A model generated the notes under the pieces. The model was not told where the DNA came from, ran no database searches, and saw only the letters and a program-made list of their open reading frames with translations. A DNA stretch of 64,000 bases from Thermotogota bacterium (GTDB lineage: Bacteria; Thermotogota; Thermotogae; Thermotogales; DSM-5069). Of this stretch, positions 44,583 to 50,593 are shown piece after piece. The stretch is from assembly GCA_029551145.1 (NCBI GenBank), contig JAKPGA010000012.1, positions 1-64,000 on the forward strand. Reading direction: 5' to 3'. A program made the position numbers and the translations under genes. The first letter of the stretch is position 1. Each line of letters opens with the position of its first letter.

Positions 44583-44783
44583 TTGAAATTGGAACCCAAT
44601 ACCGTCGCAGGATTCTTCGATGTTATCTTGTACAAGAACGGCGAAAAGAAGATCTTCTCAGAGAAGAAGAGAGTGAGAACTCGAAAGATGGGTGACTGGC
44701 AAAGTAAAAAGACCACGCAGTTCACCTTACGCAAACTGCGTGGGATAGCAAACTTGGCTATAGGGGTTAGAATTCGAAACTAA
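44583..44783 (+). CDS. Possible small basic protein, doubtful
   Basis: A 66-codon ORF starting TTG 44583, 6 bases after GGAAGGA. The product is rich in Lys and Arg (KKIFSEKKRVRTRKMG) and has no recognised domain. It runs through the terminator hairpin at 44713-44743 and 17 bases into the convergent gene, which argues against it. Kept only because the ribosome site is reasonable. Confidence 0.2.
   Translation: MKLEPNTVAGFFDVILYKNGEKKIFSEKKRVRTRKMGDWQSKKTTQFTLRKLRGIANLAIGVRIRN
44713..44743 (-). terminator. Intrinsic terminator of the secretin operon
   Basis: CCACGCAGTT (44713-44722) pairs with AACTGCGTGG (44734-44743), a 10-bp stem. On the minus strand it is followed by TCTTTTTACTTT. It lies 24 bases after the stop of the 44767 gene. 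Confidence 0.88.
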
Positions 44784-45924
44784 GGCCTACTCTCAGGTAT
44801 ATCTTTCCATTGAGTGAATACTCAGCACCGATGAGTATGAAAAACATTTGGTTTACCTTGATTTGGCCGTCGCACCAGAAGGATATGTCATCGTTGTTGT
44901 ACGCTCCGAGTGTGATATTGAAACCTTCAAAATCAAGCTCAGCACCAACCTTCCAGGACGGAGTGACAAATTTCAGTTCATCTATGAGCAATTTGAAAGG
45001 ATAGAACTCTGCGAAAAGGGTAAGAACATCAGAAAGCCTTGAATAGTCAGAAGCACCAAGTGCCAAATAGAATCCTTCGTCATAGATGAATCTTATCCCT
45101 GCTCGGAGTCCTTCCTTTCCCACCGAACTCTCTACTCCAACCATAAAACTGAAAGGCACCAGGATCAACTTTGACTGAAATGAGAGTGAATCCAAAACCC
45201 ATATCGATGCACCTATTTCACCACCAAAATCCATGAAATCTGTCGTGACAAGAGCATATATCTCGCTTGTTTTGTTCACAGCAGGCTCAAAGAGATTTGA
45301 CAGTTCATCCATGCTTCCGATCATAAAGACATTCTCTTTTGGCAACTCACTGAGAAAGGACGCTCTTGCATAAATGGCGAAGTATCTTATGCTGTCCTGC
45401 GTTTTCGTCGTCACCAGGCAGATCGGTGCAAAATCCTGACCTACCCACAGTTCGTTATCGAAGACAGTCGGACTGTATGGATCTGAGATGACTATCTTTG
45501 TGGATACTTTTCCATCGGTGATGTTCAAAGGTGTCAGTTGAACCTTGATGCCAGTCCCGGTTGTTGTGCCGGTTCTCAAAGACAATTCCTCAGATCCAAC
45601 ATAGAGTACCGCGGATTTCCCAAGCAAGGTTGACACCCAAGGTCTTGAAGAGGTTTTTTCTTTTTCCTGTCTTGTTCCCACATCAAATGTAGTTGTGATA
45701 AAAGGTATCTTCACCAAGAGTTCCATCACAGAAGGGTCATAGGTTATGCGAAAATCGAAAGCAGAGAGATCCGGTTTGTCTATGTGCAATTCTTTGAGTC
45801 CGAGTTTGCTTGTTAGTTCATCACTCAGTTGAAAAATTTCAAGCTGGTAGATCACAATAGTTTGCTGCGCAAAAGCAAAAAAGCACACCAGAACAAAAAG
45901 AAAGATGAGTATTGTTTTTCTCAT
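44767..45924 (-). CDS. Secreted barrel-like protein, last gene of the secretin operon
   Basis: About 385 residues with a signal peptide (about 1-20, FFAFAQQ). The second half is a series of strands with alternating residues (FGGEIGASIWVLDSLSFQ, GLRAGIRFIYDEGFYLALGA, WKVGAELDFEGFNITLGAY) and the chain ends in Phe (LRVGLSFEF), like an outer-membrane barrel. The first half may be periplasmic or surface. I do not recognise a family. It starts 13 bases after the secretin stop; TTG 45930 is an alternative start. Confidence 0.75.
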   Translation of the reverse strand: MRKTILIFLFVLVCFFAFAQQTIVIYQLEIFQLSDELTSKLGLKELHIDKPDLSAFDFRITYDPSVMELLVKIPFITTTFDVGTRQEKEKTSSRPWVSTLLGKSAVLYVGSEELSLRTGTTTGTGIKVQLTPLNITDGKVSTKIVISDPYSPTVFDNELWVGQDFAPICLVTTKTQDSIRYFAIYARASFLSELPKENVFMIGSMDELSNLFEPAVNKTSEIYALVTTDFMDFGGEIGASIWVLDSLSFQSKLILVPFSFMVGVESSVGKEGLRAGIRFIYDEGFYLALGASDYSRLSDVLTLFAEFYPFKLLIDELKFVTPSWKVGAELDFEGFNITLGAYNNDDISFWCDGQIKVNQMFFILIGAEYSLNGKIYLRVGLSFEF

Positions 45925-45937
45925 CTTCAACACTTCC

Positions 45938-47095
45938 TCATAAGATCTCTGCGCTCAAAAATATCACAAGCTCTCTTTTGTTTTCACTATCTGACTTGAC
46001 ACCGAAAAGATACCTTAAGAGTGGTATGCTCCCGAAAAACGGAAATCCTGCATAGGAGTCAGATGACTGTTCAACGGTGAGGCCGCTTATCACAACCGTT
46101 TGCCCACTTTGTATACAAAGTGTGGTGGACAGTTCACTTCTCTTTGTTGAAAGAGAACTGCTTGTCTGTGCTGTTGTAAAATGACTCACAGTTGGTGCAA
46201 TCGCAATTTCAAGTTCATTATTCCCAACCACTCTTGTTGTAATGTCAAGGCCGACTCCGACATCGACGGTCTGAGTTGTCGCGGTCCCGCCCTCCGGCTG
46301 AATGATTATTATTTCCCTTTGCCCCACAAACAGCCTTGCTGGCTTGTTCTCCTGAACGATGATCCACGGGTCTGCCTTTATGGTTGCCTTACGTTGTTCC
46401 TCAAGAGCCTGTATTCTCGCAACAATCGTTCCGAAGACATCTGTCTGAACCGATAATACCCCAGATACCAGTCCCAAAATCGCGGTCCAGTCTTCCTTAA
46501 CCTGCTGATTTGCCCCAAAGGTGTAACCGAGTTGATCCAGTCCAAGGTCCATCATTGCATCCTTTGAGACCTCTGTTACAACGACACTTATTTTAACCTG
46601 CTTCGGTGGTACATCTATCTTTTTGAGATCTTCCTCGAATCTTTCTATGATTTGTTCTGGTGCCGTTATGGTGATCAGATTGTTCTGAGTATCGATTTTC
46701 ACAAACGGCTCATAGAATGAAGGCAGCAGATTTTTGATCGCATCAACTTGCAGGTAATTTGGTTTTATCGTCTTGGTCTGCGCGAGGTATCTGAAAGCCG
46801 GGTTTTTCGGATCCGGTGCACCGACGAAATAGAACCCATCTACTTTTATAAAGGTGTACCCACCGGGCATCAGAATCATTCTCAGCGCCTTTTCCAAAGG
46901 TACTTCATTGAGCTCGATCGTGACAAAGCCACTCACCGTCGTGTCTGCAATGATCGGAATACCAGTCTGAGCGGCAATATCAGAGAGTGCGTCTAAGATG
47001 TAAGTGTCCTGGAAGAAATTAGAAACCAGTGGTTCTTCACCCCCGAAAGCCAGCAAAACAAGTAAAATCACAGCTATGGCAAACAGTTTTCTCAT
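45938..47095 (-). CDS. Short stand-alone secretin (GspD/PilQ superfamily)
   Basis: A 385-residue outer-membrane pore protein. After a signal peptide (1-18) come an STN/N0-like domain (about 22-95, ILDALSDIAAQTGIPIIADT and KALRMILMPGGYTFIKVDGF), one N1-type ring domain (about 105-165, LQVDAIKNLLPSFYEPFVKI, LITITAPEQIIERF) and the secretin core (about 165-385) with GLDITTRVVGNNELEIAIAP and AGFPFFGSIPLLRYLFGV, the end motif. It is shorter than most GspD/PilQ proteins because it has only one N1 domain. No ATPase, pilin or inner-membrane secretion gene is nearby. Confidence 0.9.
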   Translation of the reverse strand: MRKLFAIAVILLVLLAFGGEEPLVSNFFQDTYILDALSDIAAQTGIPIIADTTVSGFVTIELNEVPLEKALRMILMPGGYTFIKVDGFYFVGAPDPKNPAFRYLAQTKTIKPNYLQVDAIKNLLPSFYEPFVKIDTQNNLITITAPEQIIERFEEDLKKIDVPPKQVKISVVVTEVSKDAMMDLGLDQLGYTFGANQQVKEDWTAILGLVSGVLSVQTDVFGTIVARIQALEEQRKATIKADPWIIVQENKPARLFVGQREIIIIQPEGGTATTQTVDVGVGLDITTRVVGNNELEIAIAPTVSHFTTAQTSSSLSTKRSELSTTLCIQSGQTVVISGLTVEQSSDSYAGFPFFGSIPLLRYLFGVKSDSENKRELVIFLSAEIL

Positions 47096-48729
47096 TGCCC
47101 CTCTCCCCCTTCTATCTTAATTGTTCTCTTGATTAACAACGGTTCCACACCGCCAAAATCAATTCTCGCTACTATATCGTATTCACCAGGTTCAAGCTTA
47201 ATTGGCATCGTAACACCGAAAAGCCTCTCAGTTTTCGGTAACACAGGTGTTTCCTCAGTATAAGAGGCACTGGCAAGCCTCTGTGTCGTGGCTGGCAGTA
47301 TAATTCCACTGGGTTCTTCTTTTGGAGGTATTCGTTTTTCTACACCAATTGTTATCGAGGGTAACAAATGTATAGTGCCATCATTTCTGATAATCAGATC
47401 GATGTCCAAACCATTCTCTGTTAACTTGATGAGTTCAAAATCCGCCAAAATCTTTTTCACAATTGTGTCGTCCGCTCCAACATAAACCAACAAATTAGCG
47501 CCGAATTCGGTTCTTACATCCACGGTGGCAGATGAAAAGGCTATATCAAAGTAGTAACCACCCAGCATATCCTTTGGTGGGTTCGCCGTTATTCTGATTC
47601 TTCTACTCTGATTCGGCTTGAGCTGGAACGAACCGGGATTAACCTCTACCCAATCAGGTGCCTTTGCTCTTTCCTCTGCAGGGACAAGCTCTCCGTAGAC
47701 GTCGTATTCAAGAGGATAAATGGAAGCAGTTATATTCGCAGTTTGCTGACCCCGGTTTGTGATTTCGACGGTGGTGCTCCTGAAGGTCCCTGGCAGTACC
47801 TTGAGCTCGATATTTCCAGGATCAACATAGAACATGGGAGCTTCACCGACTTTGGCTTGAGAAATCTTTGCCCCCGTTTCTTCGATTGTGAATTCAGTCT
47901 CTATCATTGCAGGTCTATGACCCCCGTAGTAAACTACTCCTTTTGCCACGTAGGTACCTGCTGGGAACTGCTTTAGAGTTATACTTCTAATTTTCACTTT
48001 CGCATCTGGCAGGATAACACCCCTACCTGCCCCGAGCGGAATTTTGGAGATTGTTCTTCCTTCCTTCGTCTTTATCGTCAGTTCACCAGTGACCTCGATG
48101 TGTATGTTGCTTTTGTTCCAAACTGTGACACTGAACACATTCGCATCGTCGCCCACTGTCTGTTTTATTTCAGCCAAAGATGGGATTTCACCTATCTTCT
48201 GGACCTCGATCTGGGTTGCGTATGCCTCCATTTTCTTGCGCCCAGCTTCCACCGACAACTCGAGATAGCTCGGTAACTGGAATTGAAACTGAGCGGCAAT
48301 TCCCATAGCTTCAGGCATCACCTCTGGTTTTTGTGAAGGCGGGACGATTCTGAAGACAATCGCAGCGTATCTACCTCCAACCGTACCTCTTGGAACATTC
48401 ACCTCGACCGTTACTACCTGTCCACCTGCTGGCTGAAGCGTGAAGTTGGTTGGAGTGACCTTTACCCATTTTGCAGCTGAATACAAAGTTGTTCCTGCTT
48501 CGGCAATGTTGTAATTTCCCTCTATGTCCTGCACAACATCTGCGACCACTACCTCTATACCAACCGAGTTGAATTCGTCTGCATTTTCAAGGAATATGTT
48601 GTAACTGAACTTATCACCCTGCGAAACTGTCTTTGTCACAACCAACGGATCGAGTCTCAAGCTGAATGACCCCTGTGAAACAGCCAAGTTCGCCAACAAA
48701 ATCAGAAGAATGACTGTCATCTTTTTCAA
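47092..48729 (-). CDS. Large periplasmic protein with Ig-like/DUF916-like repeats
   Basis: About 545 residues with a signal peptide (1-19, NLAVSQG). Two tandem beta-sandwich units of the same kind are visible: SFSLRLDPLVVTKTVSQGDK ... WVKVTPTNFTLQPAGGQVVT ... GGRYAAIVF, and again FYVDPGNIELKVLPGTFRST ... WVEVNPGSFQLKPNQSRRIR ... GGYYFDIAF. The layout recalls DUF916/NEW3-type Ig-like proteins. No C-terminal anchor helix is seen. TTG 48729 is preferred, with AAGGGG 8 bases upstream. Its stop overlaps the secretin ATG, so the two are coupled. Confidence 0.78.
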   Translation of the reverse strand: MKKMTVILLILLANLAVSQGSFSLRLDPLVVTKTVSQGDKFSYNIFLENADEFNSVGIEVVVADVVQDIEGNYNIAEAGTTLYSAAKWVKVTPTNFTLQPAGGQVVTVEVNVPRGTVGGRYAAIVFRIVPPSQKPEVMPEAMGIAAQFQFQLPSYLELSVEAGRKKMEAYATQIEVQKIGEIPSLAEIKQTVGDDANVFSVTVWNKSNIHIEVTGELTIKTKEGRTISKIPLGAGRGVILPDAKVKIRSITLKQFPAGTYVAKGVVYYGGHRPAMIETEFTIEETGAKISQAKVGEAPMFYVDPGNIELKVLPGTFRSTTVEITNRGQQTANITASIYPLEYDVYGELVPAEERAKAPDWVEVNPGSFQLKPNQSRRIRITANPPKDMLGGYYFDIAFSSATVDVRTEFGANLLVYVGADDTIVKKILADFELIKLTENGLDIDLIIRNDGTIHLLPSITIGVEKRIPPKEEPSGIILPATTQRLASASYTEETPVLPKTERLFGVTMPIKLEPGEYDIVARIDFGGVEPLLIKRTIKIEGGEGQ

Positions 48730-48763
48730 GGTACTCACCCCTTATTGTCTTCTCTCTTAAAAA

Positions 48764-48787
48764 CAGTAGGGGGATAACCCCCTACTG
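48764..48787 (-). terminator. Terminator inside the secretin operon
   Basis: CAGTAGGGGG, loop ATAA, CCCCCTACTG: a 10-bp stem followed on the minus strand by TTTTTAAG. It separates the two secreted-protein genes from the Ig-like, secretin and barrel genes. Only about 35 bases remain before the 48729 start, with no room for a full promoter, so downstream genes would depend on read-through. Confidence 0.85.
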
Positions 48788-48831
48788 CGTCTCACAACTT
48801 TGCTTGAAGCCACCCAATCATTGTTTTTCAA

Positions 48832-49494
48832 TTAAAAGTTAAATCCACCTGTAGCTGGGTCAATCCAAGGTTTAATTCTCTGGAGTGTGATCGTTACAGT
48901 GCCTCTTCCAATATAGTTGCAAGCAGAGTTGCAGTTCACAACTTGAATCATGTTCCACAGTTTTCTTGAAATACCTCCGTGTAGATCTGCACTGTCTGGT
49001 ATGAAAATTCTTGCTTGATTCAACTGTTCTGCTGATACCATTTCTTCAATATCCTCTGGGAGATTACCTAAGCCATAGCCGTACCAAGCATCAACGGTGT
49101 CTTTCACATGGCTGAAGGTAGCTGCATAAGTCGGACTCTCAAAACCACTGAAGCTTATGACAATTTCTCCGTTGCTCTGGATGAAGAAGCTGATGCAGTC
49201 AGTTATATACTTTCCAGGTTTTCTGACATACCATGTCCATTTTGTTCCATCAAGCTGCCAGTTAATCCATTGTGCTACCTGAACCTCTGTCTCAATGTCC
49301 ACTGTCCAGTTCTGCTTGTTGCAAGAACCATTTGCTGCACCAGATTTGTATGCCCTTGCCTCTGCAAATGGATCTGTCATGCTCAGCGTTACCCATTCAC
49401 CTTCAACATCTTTCCAAACTGTTAATTGCGATGCACCAAAGATTGTGAGAGCAAAAGCTACGGTTAAGATCAGTAAAAGAACCACCTTTTTCAT
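48832..49494 (-). CDS. Secreted protein of unknown function, paralogue of the 49529-50593 product
   Basis: A 220-residue protein with a signal peptide (1-20, MKKVVLLLILTVAFALTIFG). The mature part begins SQLTVWKDVEGEWV and includes WYVRKPGKYITDCISFFIQS, EEMVSAEQLNQ and GTVTITLQRIKPWIDP, each of which has a counterpart in the upstream gene product. Several cysteines (NGSCNKQ, VVNCNSACNY) suggest disulfides or surface exposure. No named domain. GGAGGG precedes ATG 49494. A terminator follows its stop by about 45 bases. Confidence 0.75.
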   Translation of the reverse strand: MKKVVLLLILTVAFALTIFGASQLTVWKDVEGEWVTLSMTDPFAEARAYKSGAANGSCNKQNWTVDIETEVQVAQWINWQLDGTKWTWYVRKPGKYITDCISFFIQSNGEIVISFSGFESPTYAATFSHVKDTVDAWYGYGLGNLPEDIEEMVSAEQLNQARIFIPDSADLHGGISRKLWNMIQVVNCNSACNYIGRGTVTITLQRIKPWIDPATGGFNF

Positions 49495-49528
49495 GTGAAG
49501 ATCCCTCCTTCTAACCCCTTGACAGAAA

Positions 49529-50593
49529 TCATTTTCTGTCAACGTATGCCTTTGTGTTTTGAAGAGTGAAAGTTATTGTGCCCACGTTCTTGTAAATACC
49601 TGACGACTGAGTTTTCAGATCTACAAGCTGGTAGAAATTCAAAGATGATGAACCGGAACTCAGTGTCAAAACCATGCTGTTAAGACTCTGAGCTGTTATC
49701 CATTCAAAGTTACTTGGAAGATCATCACTTATCGTGTAGAAAACATCTATCTTTTCAACCCCTATCCCCCCTTGTGGTTGAAGGTTATCGAAGTTGCTGA
49801 ATGTGACAACAACAGGGTATGAACTGTTCACGCTTACTTCAAAGGCGTTAGTGGTGTACTTTCCAGGCTTTCTTATGTACCAGAGGCTACCCGTATTCGA
49901 GATCGTTACACACATATCTGAGGGAGGTTCACCTCCAGCCCACGCAGTCTCTTGCTGATTGCCTTTTTTCACTGAAAGATGAAGAAGTATGTATATTTTT
50001 TGACCAACCTGAGGGCATCTGTTCAGGTATGCGATCACATATTCATCTTCGCTAACAGCTGGGTTGTAGGTGCGTTTGTAAGGAAATTGACCTGGATTCT
50101 GATTGCCCGTTGGCTTTTGGTTGTCTATTTTCAGCTGTGACTGTTCCGCAAGCCATCCACCGATCAACTCAAACTTGATATGAATGTTTGAGTTGTCATT
50201 CCAAACGGTCGTGGTACCAATGTTGTAATTCTGACCAGCTATAACACCGTAATAACTCTTAGTTGTATTGTCCTTGATCTGGTATTCTATGTAGTAGTAC
50301 CACTGTGCTTTTGTCGTAACGGAACTTGAGGATTGTGTGTTCAAGCTATTGGACGGCTGAACAACAATTGTGCCGTTTATCCCCAAAGAAACAGATGAGT
50401 TCGACGTACCACTAAGCGGGGAAGAGATTACAACAACTTCTGATATATCTTGACTCACTCTTTGCCAAAGACCAGTTTCTGGATTGTATCTGTAAACTTT
50501 TGGGGAATAGGAAAGTGCGACTGTGGTTATGAGAATGAATAAGACCATTATCAACTCTCTAAATATCACCTTATCACTTAGAAATCTATCCAC
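49529..50593 (-). CDS. Secreted protein of unknown function, paralogue of the 48832-49494 product
   Basis: About 354 residues: an N-terminal hydrophobic segment (FRELIMVLFILITTVALSYS) followed by VYRYNPETGLWQRV, a Ser/Thr/Asn-rich stretch (about 55-95) and a C-terminal domain with WYIRKPGKYTTNAFEVSVNS, DVFYTISDDLPSNFEWITAQ and GTITFTLQNTKAYVD. The C-terminal third and the first mature residues are clearly related to the next gene's product. First gene of the operon. GTG 50593 is preferred to ATG 50599 by ribosome-site spacing. Possibly cargo or a surface component of the secretin system. Confidence 0.72.
   Translation of the reverse strand: MDRFLSDKVIFRELIMVLFILITTVALSYSPKVYRYNPETGLWQRVSQDISEVVVISSPLSGTSNSSVSLGINGTIVVQPSNSLNTQSSSSVTTKAQWYYYIEYQIKDNTTKSYYGVIAGQNYNIGTTTVWNDNSNIHIKFELIGGWLAEQSQLKIDNQKPTGNQNPGQFPYKRTYNPAVSEDEYVIAYLNRCPQVGQKIYILLHLSVKKGNQQETAWAGGEPPSDMCVTISNTGSLWYIRKPGKYTTNAFEVSVNSSYPVVVTFSNFDNLQPQGGIGVEKIDVFYTISDDLPSNFEWITAQSLNSMVLTLSSGSSSLNFYQLVDLKTQSSGIYKNVGTITFTLQNTKAYVDRK

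Follow-up and report, generated by a model that had tools for sequence, protein, structure and literature searches.

The first 64,000 nucleotides of contig JAKPGA010000012.1 (assembly GCA_029551145.1, a Thermotogota bacterium with a 2.1-Mb draft genome), hereafter called the window, contain a small secretin locus whose five genes form one unit in Pseudothermotoga. An initial annotation had described an operon of two paralogous secreted proteins, an immunoglobulin-like (Ig) protein, a secretin and a barrel-like protein; all five genes were found where it had placed them, on the minus strand, with the Ig and secretin genes overlapping as described (Table 1). The small subunit P4 most likely starts at the ATG at 49494 behind an AGGAGGG site and not at the TTG at 49542 overlapping P5, the large subunit. 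As already proposed, the locus encodes no ATPase, pseudopilin or inner-membrane platform, and no usher was found either. A usher (PF00577) was absent from the whole genome of the window, and no match exceeded the cut-off in 103 Thermotogota. No PilB relative was detected by blastp in the cassettes, the sole weak match (52 residues, E 1e-5) lying in a gene that flanks one of them, and none of 78 subunit proteins showed a prepilin motif.

Table 1. Genes and terminator-like elements of the secretin locus, in window coordinates.
Feature	Position	Strand	Description
P5, large subunit, 356 aa	49529..50599	(-)	Hydrophobic N-terminus, VYRYNPETGLW motif, extra N-terminal region, P4-like C-terminal domain (~224-356); candidate tip adhesin
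P4, small subunit, ~220 aa	48832..49494	(-)	Sec-type signal peptide; predicted pilin-like beta-sandwich after low-confidence N-terminus
Terminator-like hairpin	48759..48787	(-)	CAGTAGGGGG-TTAT-CCCCCTACTG + TTTTT; parts subunit genes from assembly genes
Ig protein, 548 aa	47092..48738	(-)	Four predicted Ig domains: N-half WxLIP-like, C-half with PapD-like chaperone fold
Small secretin, 385 aa	45938..47095	(-)	Signal peptide, N0-like, N1 and secretin domains; 4-nt overlap with Ig gene
Third gene, 388 aa (or from ATG 45924)	44767..45933	(-)	Partial secretin beta-domain, then barrel-like region, C-terminus ...LSFEF
Operon-end terminator	44708..44743	(-)	13-bp stem + TCTTTTT; 3' of third gene

The Ig protein had been regarded as double Ig-like; its Ig-like nature stands, but a confident AlphaFold2 model (predicted local distance difference test, pLDDT, 82.5) predicts four Ig domains, two in each half. 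In a structural comparison by VIA-align, the top match of residues 2-265 was WxLIP (Z 14.5 over 232 residues at 5.5 Å; WxLIP again at Z 14.3), and the fold matches of the protein included PDB entry 9i25, the complex of WxLIP with a long WxL protein. For residues 279-515, CsuC came first (Z 14.2 over 181 residues at 3.7 Å), followed by CfaA (13.3), Caf1M (12.8), FimC (12.7) and PapD (12.3), with SafB and SfaE listed too. At the level of fold, the predicted C-terminal half resembles a PapD-type two-domain chaperone; no PapD model was among the 25 Pfam families listed for the protein. Searching PDB sequences with a profile returned only Enterococcus WxLIP (E 7e-10), hhalign against WxLIP of lactic acid bacteria aligned the first half at E 1.5e-13 and the second at E 1.6e-5, and the WxLIP domain DUF916 (Pfam) was found in 16 of the 18 Ig family members at E <= 0.1 (best 2.6e-8). 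By sequence, the Ig protein is a homologue of WxLIP (DUF916/DUF3324), a protein that binds surface proteins of its own cluster (PMC10599100). It ends in a beta-strand (...KIEGGEGQ) and carries no C-terminal transmembrane helix. A WxLIP-like stretch, 56% identical to an E. faecium protein, was also encountered in a Klebsiella pneumoniae plasmid record (CP069367.1:102061-102465), probably reflecting contamination or misassembly of that record.

Upstream of the Ig gene, the supposed paralogy of P4 and P5 was borne out for the C-terminal domain of P5 (hhalign E 1.5e-26) and a short N-terminal stretch (E 4e-5, signal-peptide columns included), but not for the rest. P5 therefore combines an N-terminal region of its own with a P4-like domain, a layout also seen in tip adhesins and large WxL proteins. 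P4 has a conserved KWxW(Y/F)VRKPGxY motif and two cysteines that P4s have in common, and both subunits, like many Limnochordia homologues, share an N-terminal VYxYxxxTGxW-like motif, a candidate donor segment. Neither Pfam nor NCBIfam yielded a family for P4 or any match for the subunits of ten relatives, while profile comparisons joined several subunit families (P4-c5 at 1.4e-9, joint P4/P5-c53 at 3e-12, c5-c12 at 3e-16). The AlphaFold2 model of P4 is of moderate confidence (pLDDT 73.9), better in the core from about residue 50 and poor at the N-terminus. Its best Foldseek matches were FimG, CsuE, CS17, AbpA and CsuA/B, and VIA ranked CsuA/B first (Z 8.3, 116 residues, 2.8 Å), most of the 50 rows being pilins or other filament subunits. 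A Z of 8 is borderline alone; it gains weight from this uniform list of pilins and because P4 and the Ig protein, searched separately, matched the pilin and the chaperone of the same solved CsuC-CsuA/B entries. The models thus support, with moderate confidence, a pilin-like fold of the P4 core, with CsuA/B as its best match.

The small secretin is identified by its secretin domain (residues 230-385; PF00263, E 1.8e-34), although its NCBIfam scores fall short of all curated cut-offs for full-length secretins. It had been credited with a single N1 domain; N1 is present (107-166) but not alone, as an N0-like/STN region, sub-threshold in Pfam, lies at 28-93. The third gene was right to be called barrel-like in part, but it begins with a piece of secretin: in the family of the window, its N-terminal part aligns with secretin residues 171-335, the beta-domain (hhalign E 7.7e-8). 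This gene varies between families and is often secretin-derived, corresponding to the secretin N0-N1 part in families f2 and f8 (E 1e-35), and third-gene clusters c17 and c4 match over most of their length (E 4e-11). Most of its products end in an aromatic residue, a feature of outer-membrane barrels. Some f8 cassettes carry an extra secreted gene after the third gene (c63; L064:9874-10683 and relatives).

Conservation was assessed in the window and 40 neighborhoods from other Thermotogota. The secretin gene lies directly 3' of the Ig gene at 38 of 40 Ig genes, mostly with a 4-nt overlap, and the cassette is constant while the flanking genes vary. Upstream of the Ig gene there are usually one to four genes for small, secreted, beta-rich proteins, and the large paralogue precedes P4 in most relatives of families f1 and f3 and in Limnochordia; the five-gene order is thus kept in relatives rather than scattered. 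Scanning genomes with the Ig alignment as a profile returned four Thermotogota contigs and one metagenome-assembled genome labelled Bacillota. The class of the latter, probably Limnochordia, belongs to a second and distantly related phylum; it has the Ig gene in 55 of 72 genomes, and the full order large-small-Ig-secretin-barrel occurs at many loci. The class is diderm, given the presence of Omp85 in 70 of the 72 genomes. The Limnochordia barrel proteins show no profile similarity to the Thermotogota third genes and are consequently equated with them by position only. We found no report of the cassette, of a secretin paired with WxL proteins, or of a Thermotoga with such a system in the open-access literature.

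Several variants were recorded beside this common arrangement. Few pairs are broken; in one such case, L096 and L097 (genus g26, family f9), the Ig gene is inverted and sits past the third gene. Some genomes carry at least two different cassettes (G012, G053, G091 and Limnochordia genomes), and in a second Limnochordia cassette type the secretin and a c4-like gene precede the Ig gene (L145, L149-L151). A regulator family resembling SARP/BTAD on inspection of its sequences (cluster c3) adjoins the cassette in several families of Thermotogota and at some loci of Limnochordia (L090:12167-13228, L073:7351-8406, L066:11634-12722, L077:7738-8511, L137, L150, L154), though not the copy in the window, and is possibly dedicated to it. 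On the Bacillota contig (L107:1-150), a subunit fragment (WYLRKPGDYY) is fused in frame to the Ig gene, probably as an assembly chimera.

A further conserved element separates the subunit genes from the assembly genes. At each of 22 loci, the gap that follows the last subunit gene and precedes the Ig gene was compared with 25 dinucleotide shuffles of itself; at 17 loci, including the window, it contained a terminator-like hairpin more stable than all shuffles. Stabilities of <= -15 kcal/mol were reached in 15/22 of these gaps compared with 10/55 other co-directional gaps of the same neighborhoods. Stem sequences differ between families, hence it is the position of the hairpin that is kept and not its sequence. 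Scans of the region for sigma-70 promoters and for terminators in general yielded no more than chance; in view of the latter, the case for the hairpin rests on its conserved place and on the comparison with shuffled gap sequences. Such an element fits abundant subunits alongside scarce assembly machinery.

Taken together, these data are best explained by a chaperone-secretin pathway, to which we assign a probability of roughly 0.55: the Ig protein would act as a chaperone stabilizing pilin-like subunits, and the secretin would export or polymerize them in place of an usher. P4 and P5 would enter the periplasm through Sec, P5 with its putative binding region and pilin-like domain being the likely tip or adhesive subunit, and would be captured by the Ig protein through beta-strand donation. 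PapD-type chaperones lend a beta-strand to pilins in this way. Tightly co-translated with the Ig protein, the secretin would provide the outer-membrane exit, its wide lumen passing folded subunits. As in chaperone-usher assembly, strand exchange between subunits and not ATP would drive export, with P5 leading and probably with polymerization, which would account for the absence of an ATPase and a platform. The third-gene product may be a partner of the secretin in the outer membrane, capping or aligning it, and the hairpin may set many subunits per channel. The view of a minimal system for outer-membrane export or surface assembly, in which the paralogous proteins are the cargo, is supported. 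As a whole, however, the initial annotation held only in part: it lacked the predicted chaperone and pilin folds, which would explain how export could proceed although no ATPase is present. The cassette suggests that assembly of pili or fimbriae can go through a secretin, with no need for the customary usher or a motor ATPase. More tentatively, and with slightly less than even odds, Thermotogota and diderm Bacillota may assemble pili or fimbriae in a distinct manner, in which PapD/WxLIP-type chaperones pass donor-strand subunits to a secretin and subunit folding supplies the energy.

A number of observations weigh against this pathway. Neither a filament nor an interaction has been seen, no pilotin was identified, and we know of no secretin working with a PapD-like chaperone. 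The AlphaFold2 models were built from shallow alignments of 10 and 6 sequences, as the input was limited to window proteins and proteins of related loci. The resemblance of the Ig protein is partly common to all ASH/PapD-like Ig domains; cilia and other eukaryotic ASH proteins also rank high, so that the fold alone is no proof of chaperone function. For P4, the Foldseek E-values are 2e-3 (FimG) and worse, Z 8.3 is a level reached by unrelated models, and the N-terminal ~50 residues are of low confidence, so that any donor strand there is putative. Moreover, the c8 subunit family (f10 genomes) joins no other subunit family by sequence, and loci L070, L077, L078, L096 and L097 lack the typical upstream subunit pair or carry a reversed Ig gene.

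The main rival is a diderm counterpart of the WxL surface complex, in which the Ig protein would anchor and display P4 and P5 in a non-polymeric form and the secretin would just release them. We regard it as unlikely, despite the WxLIP homology of the Ig protein, its fold match to WxLIP (Z 14.5) and a set of small subunit, large subunit and WxLIP as in monoderm WxL clusters (PMC10599100). Sequence comparison detected no WxL similarity of P4 or P5 (hhalign E 0.5), and the WxL domain PF13731 was found in 0/72 genomes of the Bacillota class while being detected in the L. lactis positive control. Membership of the subunits in the WxL family was accordingly rejected as having no sequence support, although the two may share a fold; the WxL chain with a solved structure did not appear in the fold matches listed, which is no evidence of absence. 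In addition, this counterpart does not fit the missing membrane helix of the Ig protein or the modelled resemblance of its C-half to fimbrial chaperones and of P4 to pilins, and it accounts for the hairpin less simply.

A structural role in the surface layer or toga, with secretin and barrel as outer-membrane porins and the Ig protein as a spacer, is improbable. All products look secreted and the Ig protein has a weak NCBIfam match to a putative S-layer family (E 0.017), but the operon logic and the chaperone fold would be left unaccounted for. The toga link proposed initially was not supported, as the same cassette is present in a Bacillota class that has no toga as far as known.

Still less probable is a function of the small secretin in the type IV pilus or DNA uptake, which could be argued from its secretin domain being near PilQ models, from PilB and PilT-like ATPases encoded elsewhere in the genome of the window, and from TM1117, which we infer to be the small secretin, having been named as a pilQ candidate (PMC5637354). 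However, a separate PilQ of 1207 aa belongs to the type IV pilus of the same genome and lies behind genes read by inspection as PilM/PilN/PilO-like, and a large secretin occurs alongside the small one in many relatives. The secretin tree places the cassette secretins of both phyla on one side and 11 type IV pilus PilQ on the other (support 100). As they also travel with the Ig gene, assignment to the pilus was rejected. Thermotogota and Bacillota cassette secretins interleave in this tree, which suggests an old duplication or transfer. A filamentous phage remnant, finally, would fit the size and the pIV-like N0-N1-secretin layout, but conservation through the phylum with constant partners, and cassettes in which inspection recognized no phage gene (no dedicated search for pI/Zot or coat genes being made), render it highly improbable.

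If true, the chaperone-secretin pathway would link the chaperone-usher logic of diderms to monoderm WxL surface clusters, possibly left over from the pathway when the outer membrane was lost; the WxL clusters of gut Firmicutes would gain a diderm relative. Secretins would not be bound to ATPase-driven machines, and PapD-type chaperones would have partners other than ushers. A survey of secretion systems found the Thermotogae to be the only diderm clade without any of the known systems it searched for and guessed that they possess their own (PMC4793230); the cassette offers a concrete candidate for it, conserved and open to testing.

Compared with known systems, the cassette combines features of several. 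With PilQ and GspD of type IV pili and type II secretion it shares N0-like, N1 and secretin domains, but its secretins form a separate clade and no ATPase, platform, pseudopilins or PilMNOP belong to the unit. The P4 model resembles some donor-strand filaments of the TasA/AbpA/thread type (AbpA bundling pili, Sulfolobus 0406, CanA), which differ in needing no outer-membrane channel. Lactobacillales WxL clusters likewise comprise a homologue of the Ig protein, a small subunit and a large one that has the C-terminal domain in common with it; in contrast, their hosts are monoderm, the clusters have no secretin, their WxLIP consists of one DUF916-DUF3324 pair plus a membrane helix, and the cassette subunits are without WxL similarity. 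Chaperone-usher pili of the archaic (Csu) and alternate (CFA/I) types share the predicted PapD-like two-domain chaperone, the predicted pilin-fold subunit, the two-domain large subunit and the lack of an ATPase, whereas the cassette has a secretin and no usher, a predicted chaperone doubled and fused to a WxLIP-like half, and an extra barrel gene.
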